IMG/VR virus record: IMGVR_UViG_3300048928_000482
Coordinates: 1-64,000 of that record
Reading direction: 5' to 3' (one strand)
DNA length: 64,000 nt
Origin: a virus
This document shows positions 5,525-57,520 of this stretch, piece by piece. A program made the position numbers and the translations under genes. The notes beneath the pieces are model-generated. The model ran no database searches and was not told the origin of the DNA. It was given only the letters and a program-made list of their open reading frames with translations. Every line of letters starts with the position of its first letter. Position 1 is the first letter of the stretch.

Positions 5525-6866
5525 CCGTCACCTCAGACTGGTAGTAGTCGGGCAGCATCTCCCGCGCCTCGGCCCGCAGGTACTCCCGCTCCTGAGCCTT
5601 CCGGGCCTCAGACCAGCCGAGCTCGTCCCAGTACCCCTCACGGGACAGAACACCCGCCGCCCGCCGCTTCGCGAGGGCGTCCTCACGCTGCGACACCGTC
5701 GGAGTCGCCGGGTCGAACCACGTCGTCGCCACCTGCTCGCGCCGCCCGGTCGCCATCTGCAGAGCAATCGCACCAGCCCACCCGAACGTCGTCCCGACCT
5801 GCTCGTTCTGCTCCTCAACAGAGCGCGTGAGCTGGGCCTCGTCCGCCTTGATCGCACCCTCGGCCGGCGGGTTCGCCGTCTGGAGCCCGAAGTAGCGGCC
5901 CGGGAACCCGGTCACGATCGACGCCTGCGTGCCGTACATCTGCATCGACGTGTCGAAGTTCTTGAGGTCCGCCGCGGTGAGCTGACCGACCTTTGCGGTC
6001 TCCTTCGACAGGGTGTGGATCGCATCGAAGTACGCCTCGAACTGCGGGATCGGCTTGCCGTCGTCGCCGATGAAGTCACCCTTGGCGACGCCCGTCATCC
6101 ACATGCGGGGGATGCCGTGCGCCTCCTGCGCGAACTGCATGTTCGTCAGCGACCGAGCGGACGCGTCCACGAGCGGGATGACGTCGGACATCTGCGACTC
6201 GCCCGTCCACGCCCCCGACAGGCGCCGGTTCAGGTGCATCACGACCGGCACCGCACCGAGCCCGTGCGGGTCGCGGTCGACCTCGGACCAGCCGCCGACC
6301 GCGTCACGCTCGGCCCAGATCGTCTCGTTCGGCAGGTACAGCGTGACCTTCGTGGCGGACAGCGACGTCGTGGTGGTCGGTACGGCGAGTGCGTCGTCCC
6401 ACCCGTAGAACCGGCACGCCGAGGTCACCCGCTCGCGACGGACGTCGATGATCGCGTCCATCTCCCGCGGCGACTCCACCCGCACCCACGGCAGCGACGG
6501 GTCGTCCTCGTTAGCACCCACCGACATGAACGCACGCCCGTAGATCATCCGGTCCGCGTTGAACATCGCCGTGTGCGCCGACAGGTTCGACGCATCCCAG
6601 ATCGCGCGCAGCCGGCCATCATCCTGAGCCGACCCCGTCGACAGCGCGCGAACCTGCTGCCGGGAGTTGATCGTGTCCACCACGACCCGGCACCAGTTCG
6701 CGATCACCAGGAACCGGCGCATCTGCGGCGGGATCGCCATGCCGAGCTGCTCGACCCGCTGACGACCCAGGTAGTAGCGCAACAGGAGCTCGTCCTGGAA
6801 CGCGTTCGAGCCGAGGCGCAGCGAGTGCTTCTGGATCAGGGCCAGCTCTTCGGGGGACAGTGCCAC
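5490..6866 (-). CDS. Phage portal protein (SPP1 gp6-type)
   Basis: A 458-residue portal subunit; the dodecameric ring at one capsid vertex is the channel for DNA packaging and release. Recognisable blocks are RYYLGRQRVEQLGMAIPP, the VVDTINSRQQVRAL region and a C-terminal segment with PPAEGAIKADEAQL, all usual for the SPP1 gp6-like family. The start is a GTG preceded by AAGGGGG. It follows the large terminase by a 15-nt gap and overlaps the minor head gene. Confidence 0.9.
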   Translation of the reverse strand: MALSPEELALIQKHSLRLGSNAFQDELLLRYYLGRQRVEQLGMAIPPQMRRFLVIANWCRVVVDTINSRQQVRALSTGSAQDDGRLRAIWDASNLSAHTAMFNADRMIYGRAFMSVGANEDDPSLPWVRVESPREMDAIIDVRRERVTSACRFYGWDDALAVPTTTTSLSATKVTLYLPNETIWAERDAVGGWSEVDRDPHGLGAVPVVMHLNRRLSGAWTGESQMSDVIPLVDASARSLTNMQFAQEAHGIPRMWMTGVAKGDFIGDDGKPIPQFEAYFDAIHTLSKETAKVGQLTAADLKNFDTSMQMYGTQASIVTGFPGRYFGLQTANPPAEGAIKADEAQLTRSVEEQNEQVGTTFGWAGAIALQMATGRREQVATTWFDPATPTVSQREDALAKRRAAGVLSREGYWDELGWSEARKAQEREYLRAEAREMLPDYYQSEVTDAAAGASVGGE

Positions 6867-28736: not shown

Positions 28737-30053
28737 CTACGACCTCACATCCTCCTCCTCGCCCTTCTTCTTCGGCGCCGGTCCGATCGCATCGACCCAC
28801 GCACCACCCAGGGCGGTGACCGCGGCACGCTTCTCGGCCTCCTGCGCGTGCCGGTACATCTGCGTGACCTGGGCGCTGGAGTGTCCGACGATCTCGCCGA
28901 TGACCTGGAAGTCCACCTTGAGCGACGCGAGGATCGTCACCGTGGTGTGCCGCGCCCAGTGCCCAGTCATCGACGTGCCACCGGGGATCGCCTCGGCCTT
29001 GGTGATGACGCCGGCGGTGTGCAGCAGGTCGCGCCACTCCTGGGCGTCGTCCTTCGGGAGGATCGGTGCACCGGTGCCGTCGTGCCAGATGAGCCCGTGA
29101 GGGTTCGGCAGGTGCGCGGTTGCCGCGAGGTGACGACGGATCGCCTCGACGAGCTGGGGGACGAGCGGGATGACGCGCCCGGTCCGGGACTTCGGGCGCG
29201 TGAGGTGCCAGGCACCGGTGAGGCGGATCATCTCGAAGTCGTCAGGGATGATCCATCGCGCCTGCGGGCAGCGAGCGCCCTGCTTGAAGCCGCAGGGGTC
29301 GTCGCCGCAGCCGTGCTGGCGGCGGAGCTCCTCGAGCTTCCACGACACGGTGTAGAGCCCGGCATCGAGATCAAGGTCGGCGAGGGTGGCGCCGAGGATC
29401 TCACCCTGCCGCTGCCCGACGAGGAGCTTGAACCACCAGCGCGACCCGGCGGAGTCGGGCATCTCGGCGGCGGCCTTGAGGATGGCGACGGCCTGGGCCG
29501 TGGTGAGGGACCCGCGGTCCTTGACGACGACGGCGCCGCGCGCGCCGGGCTTGCGGACGTCGTGCGCGACGTTGGTCCGGACGATCTTCTCCGCCACGGC
29601 GGCGTCGAGGATCATCGACAGGACGATGTGCGCTTGGCGAACGGTGGAGGTGGCTCGTCCGGCGTCGGTCATCTTGACGCGCAGGGCCCGCACGTCGGAG
29701 GGCTTGAGCGCGGAGACCTTCCTGTGCCCGAGGGTGGGGACGATCCACTTGCGGACGAGGCTGGCGTACCCGGCGTAGGTCTTGGGGTCGATGTCAGGCT
29801 TGGCGACGGTCTCCAGCCAGTGCGGCGCCCACTGCTCGACCTTGACGCTCTTGGCGAGCGGGGAGCCGTGCTCGGTGACCTCGGCGCGCAGGCGGTTGAG
29901 TCGGCGGGCGCACTCGGCCTTGGTCTTGGCGGTGACGTACCACTGCTGGCGGGCTCCGGTGGCGTCGAGCCCGCCGTCGACGACGCCACGCCAGAGCTTG
30001 CCGCCGCGGATCTCGTACAGGGCTCCGTCACCGTGAGAGCGGGTCTTGGGCAT
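28737..30053 (-). CDS. int: Tyrosine-family phage integrase
   Basis: A 438-residue tyrosine recombinase. An arm-binding N-terminus (GDGALYEIRGGKLWRGVVDG), a core-binding domain (VEQWAPHWLETV) and the catalytic domain with Arg215 (GQRQGEILG), Lys288 (RPKSRTGR), His365-x-x-Arg368 (GHWARHTTV), His391 (GHSS) and Tyr400 (QMYRHA) are all present. A Cys-rich insert (GCGDDPCGFKQGARCPQ) between the first Arg and Lys is common in actinophage integrases. It lies next to the attachment junction in tRNA-Asn and is convergent with the lipoprotein genes. Confidence 0.95.
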   Translation of the reverse strand: MPKTRSHGDGALYEIRGGKLWRGVVDGGLDATGARQQWYVTAKTKAECARRLNRLRAEVTEHGSPLAKSVKVEQWAPHWLETVAKPDIDPKTYAGYASLVRKWIVPTLGHRKVSALKPSDVRALRVKMTDAGRATSTVRQAHIVLSMILDAAVAEKIVRTNVAHDVRKPGARGAVVVKDRGSLTTAQAVAILKAAAEMPDSAGSRWWFKLLVGQRQGEILGATLADLDLDAGLYTVSWKLEELRRQHGCGDDPCGFKQGARCPQARWIIPDDFEMIRLTGAWHLTRPKSRTGRVIPLVPQLVEAIRRHLAATAHLPNPHGLIWHDGTGAPILPKDDAQEWRDLLHTAGVITKAEAIPGGTSMTGHWARHTTVTILASLKVDFQVIGEIVGHSSAQVTQMYRHAQEAEKRAAVTALGGAWVDAIGPAPKKKGEEEDVRS

Positions 30054-30133: not shown

Positions 30134-30200
30134 CGTTTTGGACCTGACCTGCGGTTTCGCGAGGTGAGAGGTCTGCCAGCCATGTCCACAGCATAGCGTT

Positions 30201-30250
30201 TCGTCCGACTGTTAATCGGACGGTTGCTGGTTCGAGTCCAGCCGAGGGAG
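30201..30250 (+). tRNA. Truncated tRNA-Asn(GTT), prophage attR junction
   Basis: The 3' part of a tRNA: anticodon arm TCCGA-CTGTTAA-TCGGA (30204-30220, anticodon GTT at 30211-30213), variable region, T-arm GCTGG-TTCGAGT-CCAGC (30226-30242) and acceptor strand CGAGGGA (30243-30249). The D-arm and 5' acceptor strand are missing, and the sequence to the left does not supply TCCCTCG. This is what remains on the right when a phage integrates into a tRNA gene; the intact, reconstituted gene should be at the left junction outside the window. Confidence 0.88.
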
Positions 30251-30520
30251 CACAGAACCCCCATCTGACGTCGTCAGGTGGGGGTTGTGCTTTTCCGGGA
30301 GCAGTGCGGTCACTTCGACGCCGAGCGCGTCCGCCGCCGCGATGAGGTCGGCGATGGTCCACGGCACCTGTCCGCGGAGTTTCTTCGACACGCCCGACTG
30401 GCCGATCCCGAGGGCGGCACCGAGTGCTCCCTGCTTGATGCGCTGGCGCCACATGATCTGGTGGACGCGCTCGCCAACCTCGGCGTCGACGCTGATCTCG
30501 GGTCCGATCGGCAGGCTCAT
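30212..30520 (-). CDS. XRE-family regulator whose 3' end reads into the tRNA
   Basis: A 102-residue protein: HTH from GERVHQIMWRQRIKQGALGA to IGQSGVSKKLRGQVPW, then the DALGVEVTALLPEK end typical of small XRE regulators. After about residue 77 the frame translates the terminator and tRNA antisense (ending PRLDSNQQPSD), so the tail is not family sequence. ATG at 30520 is preferred: a minus-strand promoter TTGACT (30552-30557), 18-nt spacer, TAGCCT (30528-30533) puts transcription start at or next to that ATG (leaderless). Divergent from the MerR-like gene. Confidence 0.75.
   Translation of the reverse strand: MSLPIGPEISVDAEVGERVHQIMWRQRIKQGALGAALGIGQSGVSKKLRGQVPWTIADLIAAADALGVEVTALLPEKHNPHLTTSDGGSVLPRLDSNQQPSD
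30256..30294 (+). terminator. Rho-independent terminator of the tRNA-Asn gene
   Basis: AACCCCCATCTGACG (30256-30270) pairs with 30272-30286 with a single G-T wobble and is followed by TTGTGCTTTT. It directly follows the tRNA fragment and is the natural terminator of the chromosomal tRNA gene, thus host sequence to the right of the attachment core. It also lies within the 3' part of the opposite-strand HTH gene. Confidence 0.85.
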
Positions 30521-30527
30521 GAGCATG

Positions 30528-30644
30528 AGGCTAGGGCTTGCCCATCGAGGTAGTCAACGACCAAAAGGGGCATATCGCCTCTGTGAGACTGGCAAGTCCT
30601 GACAAGACTTGACCGGGCAACTCGCCCCCTCTACGTTCGATGCA
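30528..30644. promoter_or_regulatory. Divergent leaderless promoters with a shared operator
   Basis: Plus strand: TTGACC (30609-30614), 17-nt spacer, TACGTT (30632-30637), ATG at 30644, so the transcript starts at the start codon. Minus strand: TTGACT, 18-nt spacer, TAGCCT, ATG at 30520. An inverted repeat CAAGTC (30593-30598) / GACTTG (30606-30611) overlaps the rightward -35 and is a good operator for the XRE regulator. Confidence 0.7.
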
Positions 30645-30874
30645 TGCCCACCAGGACTGAAGTGCACTCGGAGTACCGGCTGACGACTGGTCAGGCTGCA
30701 GGGCTCCTCGGCGTCAGCGTCCGAACCGTCCTACGTCTCGAGGAACGGGGAGACCTGTGCCCTCGCAGGCTTCCAAGCGGGCATCGGCGGTTCAGTGAGC
30801 ACGAGGTCACTTCTCTCATGACTCCCGGCTACTCCGTAGGCGAGCGTCCCAGCGACTTGGTAGACCCGCGATGA
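30644..30874 (+). CDS. MerR/excisionase-like HTH protein
   Basis: A 76-residue protein with a helix-turn-helix_17 type domain: YRLTTGQAAGLLGVSVRTVL, then RLEERGDLCPRRLPSGHRRF. It opens the rightward gene cluster and appears to be made from a leaderless mRNA. It could be the excisionase of the element or a transcriptional regulator of the downstream genes. It overlaps the next gene (ATGA). Confidence 0.75.
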   Translation: MPTRTEVHSEYRLTTGQAAGLLGVSVRTVLRLEERGDLCPRRLPSGHRRFSEHEVTSLMTPGYSVGERPSDLVDPR

Positions 30875-31056
30875 GCCCCCAGGCCGATACGCGCGCCACG
30901 GCGGTCTATGCGGGCACCTGCGAGTTCTGCGCCAGCGACGTCACGGTGACCGTGCGCCTCTCGCGTGCCTGCTCGGGACGTGAGGAGGGCTTCGACATGA
31001 GTTCGTGCCCGGGCTGCGGGGCGCTGTTCCCGGTCGAGCTGGTCCGGGTCTCGTGA
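30871..31056 (+). CDS. Small zinc-ribbon protein
   Basis: A 61-residue protein with two Cys pairs, CEFCASDVTV and CPGCGALFPV, the classic zinc-ribbon layout. It starts in an ATGA overlap with the MerR-like gene and ends in a GTGA overlap with the three-HTH gene, so the three are one translational unit. Probably a DNA-binding accessory; otherwise unknown. Confidence 0.65.
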   Translation: MSPQADTRATAVYAGTCEFCASDVTVTVRLSRACSGREEGFDMSSCPGCGALFPVELVRVS

Positions 31057-32135
31057 GCGCGATCGCTCCGTCCCGGACCGCTTCGGTGCCCACCCTGTCT
31101 GTGGACTCCGCTCGGGAGCTGACGGAGCAGATCCGCGCCTGCGTGGTGCGCACGATCGACGTGCTCGGGGAGATCGACGCGCTGGTGGTCCGGGCGTACG
31201 AGGGCCGGGCGTGGGTGGTCCTGGGTCACGACTCGTGGGAGGCGTACTGCGCTGCTGAGTTCTCGGACTCGCGGCTGTGGCAGAGCGTCGCTCAGCGGCA
31301 GGCAGCGACGCTGCGCCTGCGAGAGGCCGGGCTGTCGGAGCGAGCCGTCGCGGCAGTCCTGGGCGTCGGGAAGGGGACGGTCGGGCGCGACGTCGAGTCG
31401 GTATCGACTGCCCCGACCGGGGCAGTCGATACCGCTGTGGGGCTGGATGGTCGTGAGCGGCCGGCCCGTCGTCAGGACTCGGCGCAGGTGCGGCGGCGTT
31501 CGGCGACGGTCGTGGCGCTGCGGTCTCAGGGTTGCACGCAGGTGGAGATCGCCGCGCAGCTCGGGATCGCCCAGTCCACGGTGAGCACCTGCCTCGCGAT
31601 GGCCACCGCCCGGGGCGAGCTGGATCCGGTCGCGGTGCTGGGCGTGCCCGAGCCCCGGCCGCCCGTCGACGACACCTCGGTCGAGACGTCGACGGTGCCA
31701 GCGCCGTCGCGTGCTGGGGCGCTGATCGCAGAGGCGGCGGCGCGCGCTGCTGCTCTGTCGACGCACGTGCGTGCGCTGCGCGAGACGGTCGTCGACGCCG
31801 ACGAGTGGACGAGCGACGTGCTGCTCGCGGCGGATGTCGCCGACGTCGTGAGCACGCCTCTCGCCGAGGTGGCAGGCGAGCTCGAGTACGTCCTGGCGCA
31901 CCTCGACGAGTCGCCGTCGCGGCTCCATGTGCCGCCGTCGGCGCGCTCGCACGTCCTGCGTGCCCGGCGGGTGCGGCAGATCGCCCGGGCGCTCGCGTCG
32001 GGGCAGAGCACGCCCCAGGTCGCGGCGGGCCTGGGGATCGATGTCGACGTCGTGGTCCGTGTGGACAGCGAGGTCGCGGCGCTACCGGCTGACCGCCGCC
32101 CGGGCGCCGGCGGACATCAGGTCTCGGGCGGCTGA
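31053..32135 (+). CDS. Three-HTH DNA-binding protein (plasmid/ICE maintenance-like)
   Basis: A 360-residue protein with three helix-turn-helix segments: SERAVAAVLGVGKGTVGRDV, TQVEIAAQLGIAQSTVSTCL and STPQVAAGLGIDVDVVVRVD. The N-terminal part (HDSWEAYCAAEF ... SVAQRQAATLRLREAGLS) resembles regions of actinobacterial ParB-like or replication-associated proteins. The coding sequence contains a 14-bp palindrome (31401-31432) that may be its own binding site. The GTG start overlaps the zinc-ribbon stop. Expected role: partition, replication or regulation of the element. Confidence 0.65.
   Translation: MSAIAPSRTASVPTLSVDSARELTEQIRACVVRTIDVLGEIDALVVRAYEGRAWVVLGHDSWEAYCAAEFSDSRLWQSVAQRQAATLRLREAGLSERAVAAVLGVGKGTVGRDVESVSTAPTGAVDTAVGLDGRERPARRQDSAQVRRRSATVVALRSQGCTQVEIAAQLGIAQSTVSTCLAMATARGELDPVAVLGVPEPRPPVDDTSVETSTVPAPSRAGALIAEAAARAAALSTHVRALRETVVDADEWTSDVLLAADVADVVSTPLAEVAGELEYVLAHLDESPSRLHVPPSARSHVLRARRVRQIARALASGQSTPQVAAGLGIDVDVVVRVDSEVAALPADRRPGAGGHQVSGG
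31401..31432. repeat. Perfect 14-bp inverted repeat inside the three-HTH gene
   Basis: GTATCGACTGCCCC (31401-31414), spacer GACC, and its perfect complement (31419-31432). It lies between the first and second HTH segments, encoding a non-conserved linker (VSTAPTGAVDTAV). Such symmetry is far beyond chance and not required for coding; a protein-binding or maintenance site is the simplest reading. Confidence 0.7.
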
Positions 32136-45414: not shown

Positions 45415-46073
45415 CCCACCCCACCACCCACGGGGACGACGCCCCGCCGGGCACCGACCACCGAGTGCGGCTGCTGCCAGCGGGCACCGAACGGGTGACG
45501 GGCCTGAGCGTCGATGCCGTGGCGTCGCGGATCGGGTCCGCGGGCGGCTGGCCCGCCGCGGTGCACCACTCCCGGGCGTGGGCCGGTGCTCGCCGGTACC
45601 TGCCGGTCTACCGGTGGGCAGCCGGGCTGGATGATCGGACCATCGCGGCGACCGTCGCTGCGGGATGGGGCGCGTGGCTGCTCGGCGGTCTGCTCGCCCA
45701 CCTGCTCGGCGGCCCGGGCGCCGTCGTCCCGGGCGTGGTCCTGGCGGTCGTGCTCGCCGTGGTCGACGTCGCGGTGGTGTCCTGGTGGATGGGGTACCGG
45801 CGGTCCCCGGCGCGTCTGCGGCACGCGATCTTGGCCCGCGAGCAGATCGCGGCCGGGCGCGAGCTCGCGGACTCCTCGCTGGGCGGCCGTCAGGTCGCGG
45901 GTGCGGGCGCTCAGGTGCGCCCGTCCCTCGCAGCCGGGCAGCTCGACTCCGGTCCGACGCGGCGTCGGGTGACCGCGATCGGCCCCGAAGGACGGCACCG
46001 CGCCTGCCACCCTGGAACGCTGCCGACCTGCGCGTTCACGCACTCCGACCTAAATGCGGGTGCGCCGCGATGA
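45411..46073 (+). CDS. Two-helix membrane protein before the coupling ATPase
   Basis: A 220-residue protein with two membrane helices (about 83-120, GAWLLGGLLAHLLGG and VVPGVVLAVVLAVVDVAVVS), then a soluble tail containing RLRHAILAREQIAAGRELAD. It ends in an ATGA overlap with the coupling ATPase, which lacks its own N-terminal membrane anchor, so this protein may supply the missing membrane part. Confidence 0.65.
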   Translation: MTHPTTHGDDAPPGTDHRVRLLPAGTERVTGLSVDAVASRIGSAGGWPAAVHHSRAWAGARRYLPVYRWAAGLDDRTIAATVAAGWGAWLLGGLLAHLLGGPGAVVPGVVLAVVLAVVDVAVVSWWMGYRRSPARLRHAILAREQIAAGRELADSSLGGRQVAGAGAQVRPSLAAGQLDSGPTRRRVTAIGPEGRHRACHPGTLPTCAFTHSDLNAGAPR

Positions 46074-47452
46074 CGGCGAGGTTGCTTCCCGGGCAGGTGG
46101 CGCTGCCGCTGGGGCACAGCCGCAGCGTGCCGCTGTGGGTCTCGCTGGAGCGGCCCGTGTACGTGCTGGGCGCGGCCCGGTCGGGCAAGGGCACGCTGAT
46201 CGTGGTCCCGTTCATCCTGGCCGCCCCCGGTGCGGTGGTCACGACCAGCACCCGGACCGACAACCTGCGCCTGTCCGCGGCGTGCCGGGCGGCCCTGGGA
46301 CCGGTCGAGGTGTTCAACCTCGACGGCGTCGGAGGGTTGCCGCACACCATGGACTGGTCCCCGCTGGAAGGCTGCCAGGACCCGGCCGTCGCCCAGCGTC
46401 GCGCCCGCACGCTGGTGGCCGCGACCGGGATGTCCGGGGAGAACGCCCCGTGGGCGACCACCAGCGGGGGGATCGTGCAGGCGCTGCTGCACGCCGCGGC
46501 GCTCGAGGGCCGCACGATCGCGGACGTCTACACCTGGTCGAGGTCCCCGGCCCGCGCGGACGAGGCGATGCGGATCCTGGAGACCCGGGGGCTGGGTGAC
46601 GCCTGGCACCTGACGATCGCGCAGGTCCGGGAGGAGGACGCCCGGATGCGCGCGAACAAGTGGTTCGGCGTCGACAACGCGTTCGCCGGCCTGGCGGTCA
46701 AGGCGGTGCGTGAGCGGCTCGTCCCGCGCCGCGGGCCCGCCTCGTTCAGCACCGAGGAGTTCTTGGCGGGTGCCGGCACCTGCTACATGATCGCCCGCGG
46801 CGCGAACGTCACCGAGGGCTCCACGACCGCGGGGACCGTGGGCGGGTTCTACTCGCTGTTCCTGGACCACGTCACCGACACCGCCCGCCGGCTGTCCCAG
46901 GGCGCGGTCGGCGGGCGCCTGGACCCGCCGCTGACGATCGTGGCCGACGAGCTCGCGCACATCGACCCGTGGCCCGCGGCACCGCGCATGTCGGCGGCCG
47001 GCGGGGGAGAGGGCATCCAGCTCGTGACCGTGTTCCAGTCCCGCGATCAGGCTGCCGCCGCGTACGGCGAGCACGCCGAGGCGACGATGTGGGACAACTC
47101 CACGAACGTGATCCTCGGTGGCGGGAAGTCCGAGGACTACCTCGGGGCGATCTCGCGCACCCTCGGGGAGGTCGAGCACACCCGCACCCGGTCCTCGTTC
47201 AGCACCCGCGACATCTGGTCCAGGGACACCTCCGTGGACTCCGAGTGGCGGCCGGCGATCACCGTCGACGAGCTGCGACGCCTACCCGTGGGGACCGCGC
47301 TGGTCGTGCAGGACCGCATCCGCCCGGTCCTGGCCGACCTGGTCCCGTACTGGGACGGCCCGCACGGTGCGTGCTGCGCCGCGTCGGTGGCCTGGCACGA
47401 GTCGAACCCCGGTCACGTCCTGACCTCACGCCCGGTCCCGGCGGCGGCATGA
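46070..47452 (+). CDS. VirD4/TraG-like type IV coupling ATPase
   Basis: A 460-residue P-loop ATPase. Walker A is GAARSGKGT (34-42), Walker B IVADELAHI near 290, and the family block VTVFQSRDQAAAAYGEHAEA follows. It has no transmembrane segment at the N-terminus, unlike VirD4; the preceding gene encodes a two-helix protein. It would bring substrate (DNA or protein) to the secretion channel. The start overlaps upstream (ATGA). Confidence 0.88.
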   Translation: MTARLLPGQVALPLGHSRSVPLWVSLERPVYVLGAARSGKGTLIVVPFILAAPGAVVTTSTRTDNLRLSAACRAALGPVEVFNLDGVGGLPHTMDWSPLEGCQDPAVAQRRARTLVAATGMSGENAPWATTSGGIVQALLHAAALEGRTIADVYTWSRSPARADEAMRILETRGLGDAWHLTIAQVREEDARMRANKWFGVDNAFAGLAVKAVRERLVPRRGPASFSTEEFLAGAGTCYMIARGANVTEGSTTAGTVGGFYSLFLDHVTDTARRLSQGAVGGRLDPPLTIVADELAHIDPWPAAPRMSAAGGGEGIQLVTVFQSRDQAAAAYGEHAEATMWDNSTNVILGGGKSEDYLGAISRTLGEVEHTRTRSSFSTRDIWSRDTSVDSEWRPAITVDELRRLPVGTALVVQDRIRPVLADLVPYWDGPHGACCAASVAWHESNPGHVLTSRPVPAAA

Positions 47453-49489: not shown

Positions 49490-50026
49490 CTACCGGTCGA
49501 TCTCGATGAACTCTGCCGGGACGCGGTCGGCTAACCAGACCTTCTCGTTCCCGACGTAGAACGCCACGGCGGCCTCGGCTGCCGCACGGGCGGCGACGAC
49601 CACGATTGCCGGCTCTGACGCCTTGCGTGCGCCCACCGCTTCCGCCGCAGCGCGATTGACCGATAGGTGCACGAACTGCCGACCCATCGCCCGGAGCCCA
49701 TCGACCCGGATCATCTCGGCAGCGGTCGGTGAAGTCCCGTGGAACAGCTCAGCCGGCGGGGTCGCGGGCACCCGCTCGATCCGGCCGGGCAGCGAGTGCC
49801 CGTAGAGCGCGCGGATGCGCCCATCCCGGATCTCGTGACGCTGCTTGCTCGCGCCGGCCACCATCGCCTCGATGTCGGCGACCGTCAACGACGACCAGTC
49901 ACGCTCGCACCGCAATGCGTCGACCAGCGACTGCAGCGACACCCAACCTGCCTCGTCGAGCTCCAGCTCGTAGAGCCACGGCTCGTGACGAAGCGCGTGA
50001 GACACCGCTCGACTCAGTTCAGTCAA
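49490..50026 (-). CDS. kptA: KptA/Tpt1 RNA 2'-phosphotransferase
   Basis: A 178-residue enzyme of the Tpt1/KptA family, which moves an internal RNA 2'-phosphate to NAD+. Signature pieces are SHALRHEP (Arg13-His14), GRIRALYGHS, AELFHGTSP and the FVHLSVNRAAAEAVG region, giving the expected RNA- and NAD-binding residues. The start is TTG, overlapping the immunity-gene stop by 8 nt (TTGACTGA), so it is probably translated by coupling. Its place behind an Rhs toxin/immunity pair is unusual; see findings. Confidence 0.9.
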   Translation of the reverse strand: MTELSRAVSHALRHEPWLYELELDEAGWVSLQSLVDALRCERDWSSLTVADIEAMVAGASKQRHEIRDGRIRALYGHSLPGRIERVPATPPAELFHGTSPTAAEMIRVDGLRAMGRQFVHLSVNRAAAEAVGARKASEPAIVVVAARAAAEAAVAFYVGNEKVWLADRVPAEFIEIDR

Positions 50027-50387
50027 AGTCGATCAGGTCCTCAACAGCCTGGCGCAACCAGGCATAGAAGTCGGGATACTCATCGCGGTTCTCCCAGCCA
50101 GGAGCGGCGAAGTCGTGGATGACGACGACTCGATCCCCGCCGTGAACCAGGTCCCAGCAGGCGACATCGTCGTTGTCCTGGCGCGACGCAAAGGGGACCA
50201 GTTCGCGAGCCGGGAACCGCTCGGACAAGCCGTCCTTTCGCTCGCGCAGCGCTGCACCCTCCAAGACGTGCCATGGCTCGAGGTGTGTCAGCCCCAGCTC
50301 GACGACCCTCACGAACGACGGCGGGTACCAAAAGCCGCGAGGCAGATCCTCCACCGGCAGAAGATCAGCCACTAGTTGCCGCTCCAT
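50019..50387 (-). CDS. SUKH/SMI1-family immunity protein
   Basis: A 122-residue acidic protein with the SUKH pattern: LLPVEDLPRGFWYPPSFVRV, a central ASRQDNDDVACWD block, VVVIHDFAAPGWENRDEYP and a C-terminal FYAWLRQAVEDLI helix. SUKH proteins neutralise toxins of Rhs and contact-dependent systems. It overlaps the Rhs gene end by 16 nt (a GTG at 50399 would add 4 residues) and the KptA start by 8 nt. It is the expected cognate immunity gene. Confidence 0.85.
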   Translation of the reverse strand: MERQLVADLLPVEDLPRGFWYPPSFVRVVELGLTHLEPWHVLEGAALRERKDGLSERFPARELVPFASRQDNDDVACWDLVHGGDRVVVIHDFAAPGWENRDEYPDFYAWLRQAVEDLIDFD

Positions 50388-53300
50388 CCCGTGAGCCACG
50401 AACCGAAGGGGTTCGCCGTGCGGTAGCCCCTGTTCTGGTTGCCGATCCTGTTTATCACAGCGTCGCCCCAGGTCGAAGGAACGCCGCCCTTCGTCGTTGC
50501 GAACCTCTCGGCCGCCGAGGAGGGAAGCGTGTCGTCGAAACCTCGGATGCTCGCTCGGACATCGATCCCCGCGCGGTTAGCCGCGAGCAGCCTGGTGTTG
50601 TCCAACGAGGTCAAGCCGCCATCGGGCATCCGGACGACATCGATCGCATCACCCATCCAGCCGTTGGCGCGCATGCTCGCCTCGATCGCGTCCGCACCGT
50701 TCACCGAGCTCTGGCTGAACCGCACAGTCGACGCGGGAATGCTGTTCGCCGCGCCCCTCATGTGGTTGAGGGTGGCGATTCTGCTGGTGAGCGCTCCGCC
50801 GAGGGTTCCGGTCGCGCATCCGGCGAGTGCTGATCCGCCGACTCCGCCCCATCCCCAGTTGACTTTACGTCCGGACAGCCTCTGTGTCACATAGCTGATC
50901 GCACCTTCGGAGAGTCCTCCGACGAGGCATCCGGCGATGAGGGGGTTGTTGCCGCTGGGGTCGGTGTAGTTGGTGGGTGCGCCGGCGGCGTACTGGTAGA
51001 GGTTGGTGCCGCCGCCGATTCCGATGGGGTCGCGGGAGATGAACCGGCCCAGCGTGGGGTCGTAGTACCGGGCCCGGTAGTACATCAGCCCGGTGCCGTC
51101 GTCCTCGCGGCCGGTGAAGCCGATCGAGTCGCCGCCGGTCGTGCCGGTCTGGGTCCGGACGCCGTAGGGGTCGTAGGTGTACTGGGTGCTCAGCTGTCCG
51201 TCGGCGCCGCCGATCGCCAGGGGAGAGCCGAGGGCGTCGGTCAGGTAGGTCGTCGTGGTGGTGCCGGTCGTGCGGGAGAACCACTCGTCGGTCCCGCCGG
51301 ACAGGAGCGTGGCGCTCGGGTTCGAGCCCTCGGTCTCCTTGGTGACGTTCAGGCCGAGGGAGAACAGTTCGGTGGTCACGGAGTCGACGGTCTTGGTGCT
51401 GCGGCGCCCGAAGCCGTCGTAGTCGAAGTCGGCCGTCGTGGCGGCGGTACCGGTGATGGTTTCCAGCTCGCCGCGTGCGTTCCAGGTCAGGGTGCTGGTC
51501 TGGGCGGCGCGGGTCTGCTCGACGAGGAACCCGTCCGGGTCGTAGCTGAACACATCGGGCCCGGCGGCGGTGAGCTGGTTCGCCTGGTCGTAGCTGCTCG
51601 AGGCTCGTGCTTGGGGAAGGTCGATGTTCGCGAAGCTGCCGCCCACGCTGGTGCGGTGGCCCGCGGCGTCGTAGGTGTAGGTCAGGTCGCCGGCGCTCAC
51701 GCCGCCGTGCGTGTAGCTGATCGCGGTCGTCTGGCCGGTGGCGTCCAGCGAGTAGCTCTGCTGCCATCCTCCGGGTAGGGAGGTGGAGGTCCGGCGTCCG
51801 GCGGGGTCGTACCCGTGCGTGACGACCGCTGCTCCCTGGGTGATGGTGATCGGGAGGCTGGTGTCGTCGTAGGTGTACTGCGTGGGTGTCCCGGCGTCGA
51901 GGGTCGTGCTCGTGACCCGTCCGAGGGTGTCGTAGGTGTACTCGATCTCACCGTCGGGCTGCGTGGCGGTCTGCACATGGTCGTAGGTGTCGTACGTGAA
52001 GGTGCTGACGCCGCTGGCCGAGTCGGTGATCTTCGACACCAGGCCGTTACCCGCGTACTCGTAGCTGATGTTCGAGCTCGTCGCCTGGGGTGTGGTGAAC
52101 GCGACCTGCACGACCCGGCCGAGCAGGTCGTAGGTGGTGGTGGTCGCCCTCCCGGCCGGTGTGTCCTGCTGGACCGGTCGTCCTGCGGTGTCGTACGCAC
52201 CGGTCGTGGTGTTGCCCAGGGGGTCGGTGCTGGAGACCGCCTGGTCGTTGTCGTCGTAGGACCACGTGGTGAGGTTGCCTCGACCGTCCTCGAGGGTGAG
52301 CAGGTTGCCGTTCTCGTCGTAGCTGAACGTGGTCGGCGTCCCGTTGCCGTCGGTGGAAGCGAGGATCTGGTTGAGGGCGTCGTAGCTGACCGACGTCGTG
52401 ACCCCGAGCGGGTTGGTGGTGGACACGACTCGGCCGGCGGCGTCGACGAACTGGTGGGTGCTCGCTCCGGTGCCGTCGTGCGCCTCGACGAGATCGCCGG
52501 CGACGTACGTGGCGGTGGTGACCAGCCCGGAGGGGTCGGTCGTGGTCAGGATCTGACCGGCCTGGTTGTGGGTGTAGGTCCAGGTGCGGTTCTCCGCGTC
52601 GGTGACCGTGGTGAGGCGGCCAGCGGTGTCGTACCCGTACGTGGTGGTGTTCCCGGCCGCGTCGGTGATCGTGGTGGGCAGGTCGAACGCCCCGTAGGTC
52701 ACCGTTCTGGCCGAGCGCGCCTCGGGGGTGCCGGCGAGCTCGACGATGTTGGTGGGCCGGCCCTGGGTGTCCCGGGTGATCTCCGTTCGCCGTCCCAGCG
52801 GGTCGACCACGGCCGTGATCTCGTCGCTGGCACCGCGCTCGTAGGTCACCGTGCGGGCAAGCCCCGTGCCGGAGGCTCGGATCTCCTTGGTCACGGCGCC
52901 GGTGGTGGAGAACTCGTAGCGGTGGACCGCCCCGGCCCCGTCGGTGACCTCGGTGGCCGTGATCCGACCGTCGGTGCCGGTGGTGTAGTCGAAGTCGAAG
53001 GTGATGCCCTCGGGCAGCTCCTGGTGGGCGACGCGGCCGTTGGTGTCGTAGGTGTTGGTGAGGTACTCGATGCCGCGTGCGTCCGTGGCGGTCAGGATGC
53101 GGCCGTCTTGGTCGTAGGTGTAGGAGGACACCTCTCCGGCGGGGTCGGTCACGCTGGACAGGCGACCCTGGGCGTCGTAGGCGTAGGAGACGGTCCGCCC
53201 GGCGTTGTCCGAGGCGCCTGTGACGCGGCCCTGGCTGTCGCTGGTCAACCGGATCCACCGCCCGCTCGGGGAGGTGATCTGGGTCAGTGCCCCTCTATTA

Positions 53301-56300
53301 CCTCCGGAGTAGGTCAGGTGGATCTCGTTGCCGGAACGGTCTCTGATCACCTGGAGGGGGCCGAACATCGGGAAGACGTACTCAGTACCGTCGCGCGTCT
53401 CGAGCGTCCATCCAGTCCCCTCGAACGCGACCGTCGATCCCTGGAACGGACCCGGCGTATCGACGGCTGTGAAGACCGACTGGTAGTACCCGGTGCCTGG
53501 AGAGGTGCGGGTGTAGTGGACGGTGGCGCCGCCGGGGAGGTAGAGGTCGACCTCTTGGTACTGGTTCTGGGAGTGCAGGAACATGCCGTAGGTCGAGGAC
53601 CAACCCTGACCGAAGCTACGCTCGCGCCCGTCGCCCTGCCAGTACGAGCGGGTCAGCTCGATCGGCATGACGTCGTCCAGGGCCAGGTCGGTCTTGGTCT
53701 CGACCATGTGGCCGCTCGAGACCTCGACGGGGTCGCCGGAGAGCCAGTCGACGACGTCGCTCAGGCGTGTGGTGTCGAAGGGCAGCAGGTCCCTGGAGTT
53801 GAACATCGACCCGTGGAACGCCCACACGCGCGTGTCGTCGTCGGGCACGACCTGGGTGGCGTCGGCGCTGACCGAGCCGGAGCCGTAGACGTACCAGCCG
53901 CGGTCCTCGGGGTCGTAGTCCCAGAAGTCCACCTCGGTGCCCGGGGGCAGCTGGGTGTAGTTGGGGTAGATGACCTGGGCACCCTCGGGGAAGACGTAGC
54001 TGCCGCCGGGCTGCACCGTGAAGAACACCGGGACGATCTCGTTGTCCTCGGGCAGGGGGAACGGGGGTCGGTCGATCGGGACGGCGGTGATTCCCAGCTC
54101 GTCCACCACGTCGCCGTGCTCGTCACGCACGGTGGAACCTGCCGGCAGCCGCACCTCCAGCCCGGGGATGTCCGGGGTTCGCAGCACGACCTCGGAAGTC
54201 GTGGGGTAGGTGAGCTGGACGGTGTGGGTGGTGTCGAGCTGGGTCAGCCAGATCGTGTAGGGCAGCACCGTGGTGGTGGACTTCTCGATGTCCACCAGCA
54301 CCTGGTGGACGGGGTACTGCGCGCCGGGTTCGTCGGCGGAGCGGCCGTCGACCTCGAGCGTGCTCGCCCCTGCTTCCAGGTCGCTGAGCAGGAACCGTCC
54401 TTGGTCGTCGGTGAGTGCCTGGTGGTCCTCGATGGTCACGGTGACCCCGGCGAGGGGTGCACCGGAGACCGTCAGCACGCGACCGGACAGCGCGGTACGG
54501 CCATCGGGCGCGAGCAGGGGGTCGAACGACGGTGCGGGCTCGCCGCGGGTGTTCCAGTCCACGCCGGCGAGGTTGTCCTCGTCGGGGACCCAGGTCGGCT
54601 CGGAGGCGAGGGACGCGTCCCCGCCCTCGAGCGGCGCCGCGTTCGAGGTTGGTGCCGCGATGGTTCGGGAGACCGCCTGAGCGCTTCCCGCCGGTCCGGC
54701 GGGGGCGCTGGTGGTCCCGGGAACAGGTGTGATGGCCAGCGTGATCGATCCGGTGCGTGTCTGGGCGTCGATCTCGGCTCGATAGGTGCCGCTCTGGGTG
54801 AGCGCGGTCAGGTCGTAGGTCCCCGACGCCCCGCTGAGGAACCGCCGGTTGACGTGCACCGAGCCGTCGGGGCGGCGGACCGTGAGGTAGGCGCCGGCCA
54901 GGGTGCTCGCGGAGTAGGAGACGCGCAGCCTCTGACCGGTGTCTGCGGCGAACGAGCTGTGGACGTTCTGCCCCGCGCGGGCGATGCTCATCACGGTTCC
55001 CGCGCTGCCGAGGGGGCTGGCGGATGCTGCCGTCGACAAGGTGACCAGGGTGCTGCCCGTGACTGGCAGCTGGGGCGCGACCAGGAACGTGTAGGTCCCC
55101 GCCGTCAGATCGACGGCGTCCGCGTCGCCTGCGCCCTTGGAGGACACGACCGAAGAGGTGGTGTCGACGCTGCCGTCGGGGCGCAGCAGGGAGATGTCGC
55201 TGGTCGAGGCGATGGTGTTGGAGGTCACCGCCAGGCTCACGTGGGCACCGGCAGGGACCGTGACGGGCACGATGAGCTGCTCTCCCGGCAGGCTCGTGCT
55301 CACGGTGGATGCCGGTCCGTCGAGGACCACGGTGGATGCCTGCGAGGCCACAGCCCTGACGGAGGACGTGATCGGCGCAGCGGCCTGCGGGATGATCTCG
55401 AGGACGTAGGTGCCGGCCGAGGTCAGTCCCCTGGCGTGGATCGCGCGCTGGACGGTGGAGGCCGAGAGCAGGCGGTCGTCAGCGGCCGGCGTGCCGTCGG
55501 GGCCCAGGACGCGCGCGTTCGCCGAACCGCCGAGGGACATGCCCGTCAACGAGAACGTCGCTCCCTGTCCTGCGGGAAGCGGGGTCGAGACCCGCAGGAC
55601 CTGACCGGGGCGGCTCGTGGCGCCCGGGATCGCCGCCTGTCCGGGGGTCACCGCGATGTCCACCGGCGCGGACAGGGTCAGTGTCATCGAGCCGGTCGCC
55701 GCGGAGCGGGGTGAGACCACGACGCTGTAGTCGCCCTGCTGCGCAAGGGCCGGCAGGCGCAGAACGGCATCGCGACCCGACGAGACCGTCGTCCGCGCGA
55801 CCTCCGTCCCGTCGGGCGCGGTGACCACGAGGGTGGTGTTCGCCTGCACCGTGTTGCCAGAGACGGCCACGGTGAGGTCCTCACCGATCTGCCCGGGGTA
55901 CACCAGGCGCGCCTCCTGGCCGGGCCGGGAGATCACCACCGGGGAGCCGGCGGCGGTCGTGCTCAGCGTCCCCCCGTCGACGGCCTCGGCCACGGTCAGG
56001 GTGACGGTGCCGGTCGCGTTCACACCCGGGTCGAGGACGAAGGTGTAGCGACCCGCAGTCGTGGCGTGGAACCGGTGGGCGTCCGCGGTGGTGGCCGCGA
56101 TCGTGATGTTGTCCTGGAGCATGGCGCCGTTCGGGTCCAGGACCGTCAGCTTGCTCGCACCGCTCATCGCGATCTCGCTCCACCCGAGCGAGACCCAACC
56201 GGGCTCGAGATCGGCGACGACACGCAGGTCCTGCCCGGGGCGGTCGAACACCGCCGGGAAGCTGTCCTGGTCGGTCGTGAGCTCCGCGAACAGCGGTTCG

Positions 56301-57520
56301 GAGATCGTCACCTGGACCTGGCCGGTGGCGTTCGCCCCGGCGGGGTCCAGGACGAGGGAGTAGGTCTGTCCCGCGTGCAGCGTCGTCAGGTCCAGGTCCC
56401 CGCCAGAGGACGCGAACGTCCCCGACCCCACGACGTCGCCCGCGGGTGAGTACACGCGTGCCGCGAGGCTGCCGGAGAAGGTGGAGCTGACGAGCCCGAT
56501 GTTCACCATTCCCGAGGCGGGCGCGTCGAACAGTGCGACCGACACCTTGCCTGGAACCTGCATGCTCACCGGCGTCGACACGGCGCCTGGCTCCAGGCGG
56601 ATCAGCGAGTCCACGGACGCCGGATCGACCCCCGGCAGCGGGACGGCGAAGTCGGTCGGGCTCGACGCCGCGCCCGCAGGCGTCGCCACCTGCACCGGGC
56701 CGCTGCCCGCACGGTAGGGCACCACCGTCGTCAAGGACGTCGCGCTGGCGGCGACGACCTCGGCGCGGACCCCGCCGAACGACACCGCGTTCAAGGTGGC
56801 GTCGCTGCTGAACCCGGAGCCGGAGATCACCACCTGCGTCGTCGGGCTCCCGGAGGCCGGGGTCAGCCCGGTGATCACCGGCGGGGCAGCCGAGACCGTG
56901 AACTGCCCTGCAGTCAGCGAGGAGGCGCCGGACGACAGCACCACATCACCCGAGACGGCACCAGCAGGCACCTCGAGCGTCAACGCCGTCGGGGCGGCAC
57001 TGGCGATGGCCGCGCTCGCGCCGCCCACCGTCGCCGCCGTGACCTGCTCCAGGCCGGTCCCATGGACGGTCAGCACATCACCGGGACGGCCTGCGACCGG
57101 GACGATGGAGAAGGCGGCGAGCTCGCCGCCCGGACGCCTCTCGACGCTGGTGACGTTCCCGGCCCCGTCCAGGACGTAGCGCGCACTCTCCCCGTCGGCA
57201 GCGACGACCCCGACGAGCCTGCCGGCGGCGTCGTACACGTACTCGGCCGGACCGGCCACCGTCGAGAGCTCCGTCACCTCAGGTTCGACGTCCACACCAG
57301 GGAGGTCCGCCGGATCGCCGGTCGGCTCGCCCGTGGGAACGACCTGCTCGGGGGCCGCCTCCTCTGCAGCCTCCGCAGAGCCCAGGCTCTCGGTCGGGGC
57401 AGGAGCCGGCTCGGTGGGATCTGGTGTCGGCAGCTCCCCGCTCGCTGATGCCGGGGGAGTCCCCACGAGGAGCAGTCCCGCAACGACGACAGCGACTACC
57501 GAACGAGCGTTGCCCAACAT
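50372..57520 (-). CDS. Secreted Rhs/YD-repeat polymorphic toxin (WapA-like)
   Basis: A 2,382-residue protein with a Sec signal peptide (SVVAVVVAGLLLVGTPPASA), a Pro-rich linker, two IPT/TIG domains (about 135-305), about six pre-peptidase-C-like beta repeats (about 317-935), a carboxypeptidase-regulatory-like domain (from about 1005), a start-of-cage region (VEVSSGHMVETKTDLAL, about 1263) and a long array of YD repeats to the core RARYYDPTLGRFISRDPIG (about 2145). The variable C-terminus after residue about 2190 begins with glycine-rich hydrophobic segments and ends in a ParB/sulfiredoxin-like domain (IDVVRMPDGGLTSLDNTRLL) that is the likely toxin. AGGGGG precedes the ATG. The immunity gene overlaps its 3' end. 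Confidence 0.88.
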   Translation of the reverse strand: MLGNARSVVAVVVAGLLLVGTPPASASGELPTPDPTEPAPAPTESLGSAEAAEEAAPEQVVPTGEPTGDPADLPGVDVEPEVTELSTVAGPAEYVYDAAGRLVGVVAADGESARYVLDGAGNVTSVERRPGGELAAFSIVPVAGRPGDVLTVHGTGLEQVTAATVGGASAAIASAAPTALTLEVPAGAVSGDVVLSSGASSLTAGQFTVSAAPPVITGLTPASGSPTTQVVISGSGFSSDATLNAVSFGGVRAEVVAASATSLTTVVPYRAGSGPVQVATPAGAASSPTDFAVPLPGVDPASVDSLIRLEPGAVSTPVSMQVPGKVSVALFDAPASGMVNIGLVSSTFSGSLAARVYSPAGDVVGSGTFASSGGDLDLTTLHAGQTYSLVLDPAGANATGQVQVTISEPLFAELTTDQDSFPAVFDRPGQDLRVVADLEPGWVSLGWSEIAMSGASKLTVLDPNGAMLQDNITIAATTADAHRFHATTAGRYTFVLDPGVNATGTVTLTVAEAVDGGTLSTTAAGSPVVISRPGQEARLVYPGQIGEDLTVAVSGNTVQANTTLVVTAPDGTEVARTTVSSGRDAVLRLPALAQQGDYSVVVSPRSAATGSMTLTLSAPVDIAVTPGQAAIPGATSRPGQVLRVSTPLPAGQGATFSLTGMSLGGSANARVLGPDGTPAADDRLLSASTVQRAIHARGLTSAGTYVLEIIPQAAAPITSSVRAVASQASTVVLDGPASTVSTSLPGEQLIVPVTVPAGAHVSLAVTSNTIASTSDISLLRPDGSVDTTSSVVSSKGAGDADAVDLTAGTYTFLVAPQLPVTGSTLVTLSTAASASPLGSAGTVMSIARAGQNVHSSFAADTGQRLRVSYSASTLAGAYLTVRRPDGSVHVNRRFLSGASGTYDLTALTQSGTYRAEIDAQTRTGSITLAITPVPGTTSAPAGPAGSAQAVSRTIAAPTSNAAPLEGGDASLASEPTWVPDEDNLAGVDWNTRGEPAPSFDPLLAPDGRTALSGRVLTVSGAPLAGVTVTIEDHQALTDDQGRFLLSDLEAGASTLEVDGRSADEPGAQYPVHQVLVDIEKSTTTVLPYTIWLTQLDTTHTVQLTYPTTSEVVLRTPDIPGLEVRLPAGSTVRDEHGDVVDELGITAVPIDRPPFPLPEDNEIVPVFFTVQPGGSYVFPEGAQVIYPNYTQLPPGTEVDFWDYDPEDRGWYVYGSGSVSADATQVVPDDDTRVWAFHGSMFNSRDLLPFDTTRLSDVVDWLSGDPVEVSSGHMVETKTDLALDDVMPIELTRSYWQGDGRERSFGQGWSSTYGMFLHSQNQYQEVDLYLPGGATVHYTRTSPGTGYYQSVFTAVDTPGPFQGSTVAFEGTGWTLETRDGTEYVFPMFGPLQVIRDRSGNEIHLTYSGGNRGALTQITSPSGRWIRLTSDSQGRVTGASDNAGRTVSYAYDAQGRLSSVTDPAGEVSSYTYDQDGRILTATDARGIEYLTNTYDTNGRVAHQELPEGITFDFDYTTGTDGRITATEVTDGAGAVHRYEFSTTGAVTKEIRASGTGLARTVTYERGASDEITAVVDPLGRRTEITRDTQGRPTNIVELAGTPEARSARTVTYGAFDLPTTITDAAGNTTTYGYDTAGRLTTVTDAENRTWTYTHNQAGQILTTTDPSGLVTTATYVAGDLVEAHDGTGASTHQFVDAAGRVVSTTNPLGVTTSVSYDALNQILASTDGNGTPTTFSYDENGNLLTLEDGRGNLTTWSYDDNDQAVSSTDPLGNTTTGAYDTAGRPVQQDTPAGRATTTTYDLLGRVVQVAFTTPQATSSNISYEYAGNGLVSKITDSASGVSTFTYDTYDHVQTATQPDGEIEYTYDTLGRVTSTTLDAGTPTQYTYDDTSLPITITQGAAVVTHGYDPAGRRTSTSLPGGWQQSYSLDATGQTTAISYTHGGVSAGDLTYTYDAAGHRTSVGGSFANIDLPQARASSSYDQANQLTAAGPDVFSYDPDGFLVEQTRAAQTSTLTWNARGELETITGTAATTADFDYDGFGRRSTKTVDSVTTELFSLGLNVTKETEGSNPSATLLSGGTDEWFSRTTGTTTTTYLTDALGSPLAIGGADGQLSTQYTYDPYGVRTQTGTTGGDSIGFTGREDDGTGLMYYRARYYDPTLGRFISRDPIGIGGGTNLYQYAAGAPTNYTDPSGNNPLIAGCLVGGLSEGAISYVTQRLSGRKVNWGWGGVGGSALAGCATGTLGGALTSRIATLNHMRGAANSIPASTVRFSQSSVNGADAIEASMRANGWMGDAIDVVRMPDGGLTSLDNTRLLAANRAGIDVRASIRGFDDTLPSSAAERFATTKGGVPSTWGDAVINRIGNQNRGYRTANPFGSWLTGWSGN

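Follow-up and report, generated by a model that had tools for sequence, protein, structure and literature searches.

Why would a gene for a DNA-binding protein carry a long, perfect palindrome within its own coding sequence? The gene in question, P0001, is from the IMG/VR virus record IMGVR_UViG_3300048928_000482. We analysed positions 1 to 64,000 of this virus-classed record of 64,797 bases, and by "the window" we mean this whole 64-kb stretch. P0001 encodes a protein of 360 amino acids with predicted helix-turn-helix (HTH) segments, and the palindrome lies just after the first of these. We think that the protein which the palindrome helps to encode also recognises it as its cognate DNA site, and we would give this a probability of about 85%. 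The case is built from comparing sequences: across a family of actinobacterial genes, the inner bases of the palindrome change together with the residues at the start of the recognition helix. The features of the gene are as follows, with the strand for those that are coding.

31053 to 32135, plus strand: HTH gene P0001, GTG start, with Pfam HTH matches; it encodes the palindrome and its product probably binds it.
31284 to 31406, plus strand: HTH1, residues ~78-118 (Pfam HTH_23 at 81-110; helices of the structure model at 96-103 and 107-118).
31368 to 31376, plus strand: start of the recognition helix, Gly106-Lys107-Gly108 (x0x1x2), coupled to the triplet in a mutual information (MI) scan.
31399 to 31434: the palindrome itself, whose perfect arms of 17 bp enclose 2 nt; no perfect inverted repeat of the window is longer.
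31405 to 31410: left outer box CGACTG (family consensus CArSTG; the same box is in the StrR site, PMC8406272).
31411 to 31413: left specificity triplet CCC (b1-b3), which co-varies with helix residues x0x1x2.
31414 to 31419: 6-nt spacer between the triplets (the family gap is usually 6).
31420 to 31428: right half-site, GGG and CAGTCG, the mirror of the left.
31476 to 31610, plus strand: HTH2, residues ~142-186 (Pfam GerE/HTH matches at 149-179).
31938 to 32081, plus strand: possible HTH3, residues ~296-343 (helices at 295-315, 320-327, and 331-342 in a low-confidence model).

The palindrome reads CGGTATCGACTGCCCCG-AC-CGGGGCAGTCGATACCG. A preliminary description of this DNA had reported 14-bp arms around a 4-nt centre; that sequence is indeed present, but the perfect arms reach 17 bp and leave a centre of 2 nt. 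The description was right that the palindrome lies in coding sequence between two HTH segments, as it codes for residues ~116-128, after HTH1 and before HTH2. Of the three HTHs that it proposed, HTH1 and HTH2 are matched by Pfam, while HTH3 is seen only in the low-confidence model. Among perfect inverted repeats of the window with loops of up to 20 nt, the runners-up have 14 and 13 bp, and 40 order-2 Markov copies of the window had none longer than 13 bp, versus the 17 observed. In the terms of the family described below, the site is CGACTG-CCC-N6-GGG-CAGTCG, with a gap of 6 and a palindrome score of 17, a value that none of 60 dinucleotide and 60 synonymous shuffles of its own linker reached. 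The description had also proposed a search for further copies. The exact 14-mer does not occur a second time in the 64,797-base record, and the window has no second convincing site (the best off-site matches carry 3 mismatches).

Is the palindrome peculiar to this gene? We gathered relatives from 396 genomes of one order, 394 of the class, 397 of a second order, 35 of a third order, and 200 of a family (these draws overlap), as well as from phage and plasmid records. Genes were assigned to the family by an HTH profile score combined with an xDGK motif further downstream, a high score being sufficient by itself. This gave 70 actinobacterial genes, of which some are closely related to each other and some may not be true relatives. 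Because every genome search scored a limited share of its candidates (for example 5 to 30 per genome), relatives were missed. The best palindrome in each linker was scored blind to its sequence, and the score cut-offs were fixed after the first cases had been seen. In the first two relatives identified, L003 and L004, the same linker carries a palindrome, nearly identical in one and different in the other.

The linker palindrome is a trait of the family. It scores at least 8 in 51 of the 70 genes and at least 10 in 41, while stretches of the same length taken from the same genes (upstream, +250 nt, and +500 nt) score at least 8 in 3 of 70, 2 of 69, and 4 of 69. The mean score is 10.1 in the linkers versus 5.2-5.5 in these controls. 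All 51 palindromes have a TG..CA anchor (L084 has it at the odd gap of 2), as compared to 1, 1, and 0 in the controls, and in 44 of the 51 the score is above that of every one of 60 dinucleotide shuffles of the linker. Other searches had these outcomes: proteins of viral contigs gave no match with two relatives as queries and one match with P0001; a plasmid search with the relative L065 gave no match; a phylum-wide search had matches in 4 of 315 genomes, with G1563 new among them; and a scan of viral contigs for ATCGACTGC-N4-12-GCAGTCGAT found 14 loci, all lacking a relative of the protein. One relative, from Cellulomonas triticagri (L005, near 5747-6001), lacks its N-terminal half and, by inspection, lies next to transposase-like sequence.

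The sites of the family share the layout CArSTG-NNN-N6-N'N'N'-CASyTG, or the same with an N7 spacer. This layout is constant while the inner triplet is variable. Among the 50 sites that we used to study the code (see below), the triplets are 6 nt apart in 39, 7 in 8, 5 in 2, and 4 in 1. The site follows the HTH within ~5-19 codons, and the window gene fits this layout. The motif falls in one reading frame in 41 genes and in a second in 9, from which we argue that the constraint acts on the DNA and not on the peptide. In the window gene and its relatives L003, L023, and L128, the outer ATCGACTGC and GCAGTCGAT are invariant and the middle differs, so the palindrome's outer part is kept in close relatives, from which the preliminary description had considered its loss. 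Several genes hold 2-3 copies of the palindrome in one linker.

What sets the inner triplet? Its letters follow residues of the recognition helix. We defined x0x1x2 as the three residues that precede the conserved Thr of the recognition helix. From the 70 family genes, 61 had a score of at least 6, and removing 8 without a symmetric anchor left 53. After dropping L084 (gap 2), L148 (gap 19, score 7), and L075 (score 6), 50 sites remained, or 37 after dereplication at 80% HTH identity. The combination K-G (GKG or SKG) is paired with CCC in 4 of 4 genes (the window, L158, L168, and L185); this rule was itself drawn partly from the window gene. Other pairings are KS with TCC, DQK with AGG, DQA with ATG, SQP with ATT, SVG or GVG with TTC, DA or EA with CGT, and GAG with CTC. 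Among the 37 dereplicated genes, two genes with equal x1x2 agree on average in 2.50 of the 3 triplet letters (14 such pairs), versus 0.86 for other pairs (p=2e-4, 5000 permutations). In a scan of MI between 22 HTH columns and 7 site positions, the top couplings were x1-b2 (z 6.2), x1-b1 (5.6), and x0-b3 (5.0), followed by +2-b1 (3.8) and x2-b3 (3.6), with the remainder at 3.1 or below. Some simple rules also hold across the 50 sites, without dereplication: x1=K goes with [TC]C in 14 of 14, x1=Q with b1=A in 14 of 15, x0=D with b3=G in 7 of 7, and x2=G with b3=C in 12 of 12. When each gene was left out and its triplet predicted from the gene with the nearest x0x1x2, 2.22 of 3 letters were right versus 0.91 if permuted, and 1.73 of 3 were right (z 6.4) with prediction restricted to genes under 55% identical in the remaining HTH. 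The preliminary description's idea of a self-encoded binding site is thus strongly supported by comparison, as the inner bases co-vary with the helix that probably reads them. Its narrower proposals (a parS-like, replication, or termination site, and a maintenance protein) may or may not hold.

The code also allows predictions. We ran four scans of viral contigs by DNA pattern only, with the expected helix recorded beforehand. Of the 186 sites found, 13 lay behind a family HTH; with the known L270, L283, and L305 removed and L342/L390 counted once, there were 8 new genes. The predicted helix was present in 7 of these (L218, L290, L309, L312, L348, L378, and the first site of L287), although the HTH match in L348 is weak (21.5 bits). 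In a scan for AACTGCGT, none of the 10 sites was in an HTH gene.

A link to a known target that does not depend on co-variation comes from StrR. We take L114, L103, L199, and L200 to be StrR-like, by inspection rather than by comparison with the StrR sequence. The published target of StrR is GTTCGACTG-N11-CAGTCGAAC (PMC8406272, PMC8306873), and CmlR bound a StrR-type site in an electrophoretic mobility shift assay (PMC8406272). L114 and L103 encode exactly this sequence in the linker after their own HTH. Because StrR-like linkers carry the published StrR site, the linker palindrome is tied to a known HTH target. An exact scan for the site in 245 genomes found 7 places in 6 genomes, of which 2 are the linkers of L199 and L200 (the frame of L200 is disturbed) and the other 5 are not visibly so. 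L197, L198, and L201 have the exact consensus in mutually similar surroundings that do not resemble a StrR gene. The window site shares the outer box CGACTG/CAGTCG with the StrR and CmlR sites, but it is TATCGACTG-N12-CAGTCGATA, with the same inner box, another flank, and 12 rather than 11 bases between the boxes. StrR also differs in activating several promoters, whereas the window has the one convincing site. Finally, StrR is described as a ParB-like N domain with a tri-helical HTH (PMC10886168), and Pfam finds no ParB domain in P0001, nor has the low-confidence model a strand in residues 1-118. The Pfam test is insensitive, though, because the StrR-like L114 and L103 are not matched either.

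Several observations weigh against our reading. The profile used to collect the family (A2) spans part of the linker, so the count of 51 of 70 may be inflated. Also, 19 of the 70 members of this wider family have no linker palindrome with a score of at least 8; degenerate palindromes are visible in some of these, for example L067 and L121. Some extra linker copies do not obey the code: the third copy of L161 (ATG), the second of L172 (AGT), the second of L196 (AGC/AAT), and the second of L287 (AGG). Possibly, these mismatched copies are targets of another protein of the family. The pairs QR, QS, and RG each occur with two different triplets, column +2 is also coupled to b1 (z 3.8), and one of the eight new genes was mispredicted (L342/L390, with helix APA and triplet TTC). 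Dereplication at 70% leaves just 2 pairs with equal x1x2, and at 60% there are none. The StrR-like Bbr and Dbv4 have the site GTCCAR-N17-TTGGAC, whose longer spacing is outside the family layout (PMC6022936). Lastly, close relatives share some signal in other HTH columns: with no identity limit, columns -16 to -5 predict the triplet with z 3.1. This falls to 1.1 under an 80% limit and then to -1.2 and, under 55%, to -0.6, and because these columns predict nothing at the stricter limits, relatedness alone does not explain the code.

If the palindrome is the protein's target, how might it work? A symmetric pair of HTH1 segments would probably sit on the two half-sites, CGACTG-CCC and its mirror, if the protein binds as a dimer. 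Conserved parts of the HTH would recognise the outer box, and the inner triplet would be left to the residues that open the recognition helix, with Gly-Lys-Gly reading CCC. The site would be stored in the codons of the linker, which is probably flexible, as residues 119-131 of the structure model have a predicted local distance difference test (pLDDT) score below 50, which fits. (The model is poor, with a mean pLDDT of 60, and fold searches with it gave generic HTH and helical matches that include ParB 1zx4 at Z 6.3; our conclusions were drawn without these.) Because the site sits in the codons right after the helix, the HTH and its target may be inherited and evolve as one cassette. The bound protein might block RNA polymerase or nucleate a complex over its own operon, and either would make expression self-limiting. 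We think that this is the most likely effect because the site is ~350 nt inside the transcribed gene; for a roadblock by itself, we see about an even chance. The site may also help to maintain a conjugative element. The identity of the site and the residue-to-base code are what the comparison supports.

Where else sites occur bears on their use. Of 46 loci of at least 4 kb, 32 contain no further copy at up to 3 mismatches. A second copy with at most 1 mismatch is present in L176 and L165 alone, in the same linker. A scan of 10 whole genomes for AGGTGAKK-N6/7-MMTCACCT matched 7, and 6 of these have exactly one copy, in the gene's own linker (in the remaining 3 genomes, the outer box of the sites is different). 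The other, G1159, holds three sites and is the only one of the 7 with a site outside of a family linker. Its two identical extra sites (L206, C12:808394 and 808895) both encode AGEETSSP within one open reading frame (ORF) of 469 amino acids, which is hydrophobic at its start and matched by neither Pfam nor PHROG. This two-site arrangement recurs on one viral contig of 33,974 bp. In L187, imperfect further copies lie 499 and 325 nt before the linker site, and the latter is just before its open frame. These placements favour a regulatory use, without proving it. Around 9530-10050 of L187, there are several palindromes upstream of and at the start of its ORF.

An alternative that we consider rather unlikely, but which deserves weight, is that the site is like parS: a nucleation or partition site of the element, bound by a protein that serves a segregation or transfer machine and is not a regulator. 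The site is often single, as in the 6 genomes above. L187 has a ParB-like N domain by inspection, and L064 matches TIGR00180 with E 0.003, which is below the cut-off. In mycobacterial prophages, relatives lie beside or near a gene annotated as a ParB-like nuclease. The HTH of P0001 itself has a RepB match (residues 78-123), also below its cut-off. (A PDB sequence search gave four weak matches.) Against this, P0001 otherwise has only HTH matches in Pfam, with no ParB model above its cut-off. Furthermore, there is no ParA among the 19 other ORFs of the window that were scanned with Pfam (20 ORFs in all, which is not exhaustive); the imperfect copies before the ORF in L187 look like an operator; and StrR and CmlR, with the same outer box, are transcription activators (PMC8406272, PMC8306873). 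As to the gene order in the prophages, a family gene is followed by a gene with this nuclease annotation in two mycobacterial prophages (L121 692-2490 and L124 2929-4684; compare L122 3962-5535), and the gene after the nuclease matches PHROG 5931 in L121 and also in the Propionibacterium phage L122.

It is very improbable that the palindrome is a small insertion element that settled in frame in the linker and spread by duplication. Linkers with 2-3 copies and the two further copies in another ORF, in G1159 and on the 33,974-bp contig, would suit such an element, but it would not account for the helix-triplet code, and among the 7 matching genomes a site left the family linker in G1159 only. 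We find it harder still to believe that the palindrome acts as a hairpin of RNA or single-stranded DNA (an attenuator, an RNase site, or a translation brake). The arms on the sense strand are perfect or nearly so over ~8-18 bp, and hairpins should also show compensatory changes. However, a hairpin leaves the triplet's dependence on the recognition helix unexplained, the spacing is mostly 6-7 nt and the letters of the outer box are conserved, and the window has no Rfam match at the gathering score. Also, the 450 paired arm positions include 20 mismatches, and just 2 of the 20 are G-T, which disfavours RNA pairing as the constraint. We give almost no weight to the idea that chance or a conserved peptide produced the palindrome. 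Similar short linker peptides are frequent (for example VPNGTP and SNESP), and synonymous shuffles equalled the observed score in 8 of 60 cases for L177 and in 5 of 60 for both L191 and L040. But the pairing is kept while the peptide varies, in two reading frames; the scores exceed those of the controls, and in the window those of every shuffle; and the co-variation of helix and triplet contradicts it. We set aside the hairpin and conserved-peptide readings because of the co-variation, the two frames, and the types of mismatches.

Some known systems can be compared with this one. B. subtilis has a parS inside spo0J. For the comparison with ParB we presume, by reading and not by computed alignment, that its G170-S172 correspond to x0-x2. 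ParB-parS and Noc-NBS resemble our proposal in that palindromic sites are read by an HTH. The contacts of ParB with parS are made by G170, K171, S172, and R173, and a Gln in position 173 favours adenine, which resembles the association of x1=Q with b1=A (PMC7383237). But ParB and Noc have two family-wide sites, parS and NBS, and here the triplet varies from gene to gene. C.Kpn2I binds inside its own ORF and blocks elongating RNA polymerase (PMC6237814), and the P0001 site, as identified by co-variation, would likewise lie within its own ORF. C.Kpn2I is an XRE-type protein of a restriction-modification system and is called unique among known C-proteins (PMC6237814), whereas the P0001 family has another type of HTH, and in many of its genes the site keeps a constant position behind the helix. 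A sequence relative of P0001 is PHROG 29861 (E 1.5e-12), which includes Orf30 of Propionibacterium phage PFR2. The genes of PFR1 and PFR2 also carry a linker palindrome, with triplet ATG and helix DQS. PHROG 29861 differs in that its function is listed as unknown, and the entry and the records examined name no site.

It seems fairly probable that there is an actinobacterial HTH family, with members in phages, plasmids, and conjugative elements and including some StrR-like regulators, whose genes hold the protein's target in the codons that follow the recognition helix. The HTH and its target would then move and evolve together as a cassette, and each gene would be a readable recognition pair, in effect a natural code. 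Predicting the DNA that an HTH reads is a long-standing problem, and dozens of natural pairs of helix and site (50 here) may be readable from genomes. If this is true, then mobile elements keep the target and its reader together through transfer, and it suggests intragenic autoregulation that annotation misses. Our searches of an open-access library listed no paper on such a family-wide arrangement; a StrR site inside strR may already have been published.

What sort of element carries P0001? The presence of both an integrase and a TraG/TraD-type coupling protein suggests an integrative conjugative element and not a phage. The relevant genes are:

28737 to 30053, minus strand: tyrosine integrase of the element (Pfam Phage_integrase, 3e-16).
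30644 to 30874, plus strand: small excisionase-like HTH ORF, upstream of P0001 and in the same direction (by inspection and by synteny with the "excise" gene of prophiGD43A-5).
45665 to 47452: TraG/TraD-type coupling protein.

Beside the integrase, positions 30190-30252 resemble the 3' part of a tRNA gene and overlap the end of a BetR-like HTH ORF (30212-30526). From inspection, this is likely an attachment site; ARAGORN finds no whole tRNA there, and the window has no second copy of the tRNA-like core. Elsewhere in the window, a gene for KptA/Tpt1 RNA 2'-phosphotransferase (49490-50026) adjoins a large RHS-repeat gene (50372-57520).
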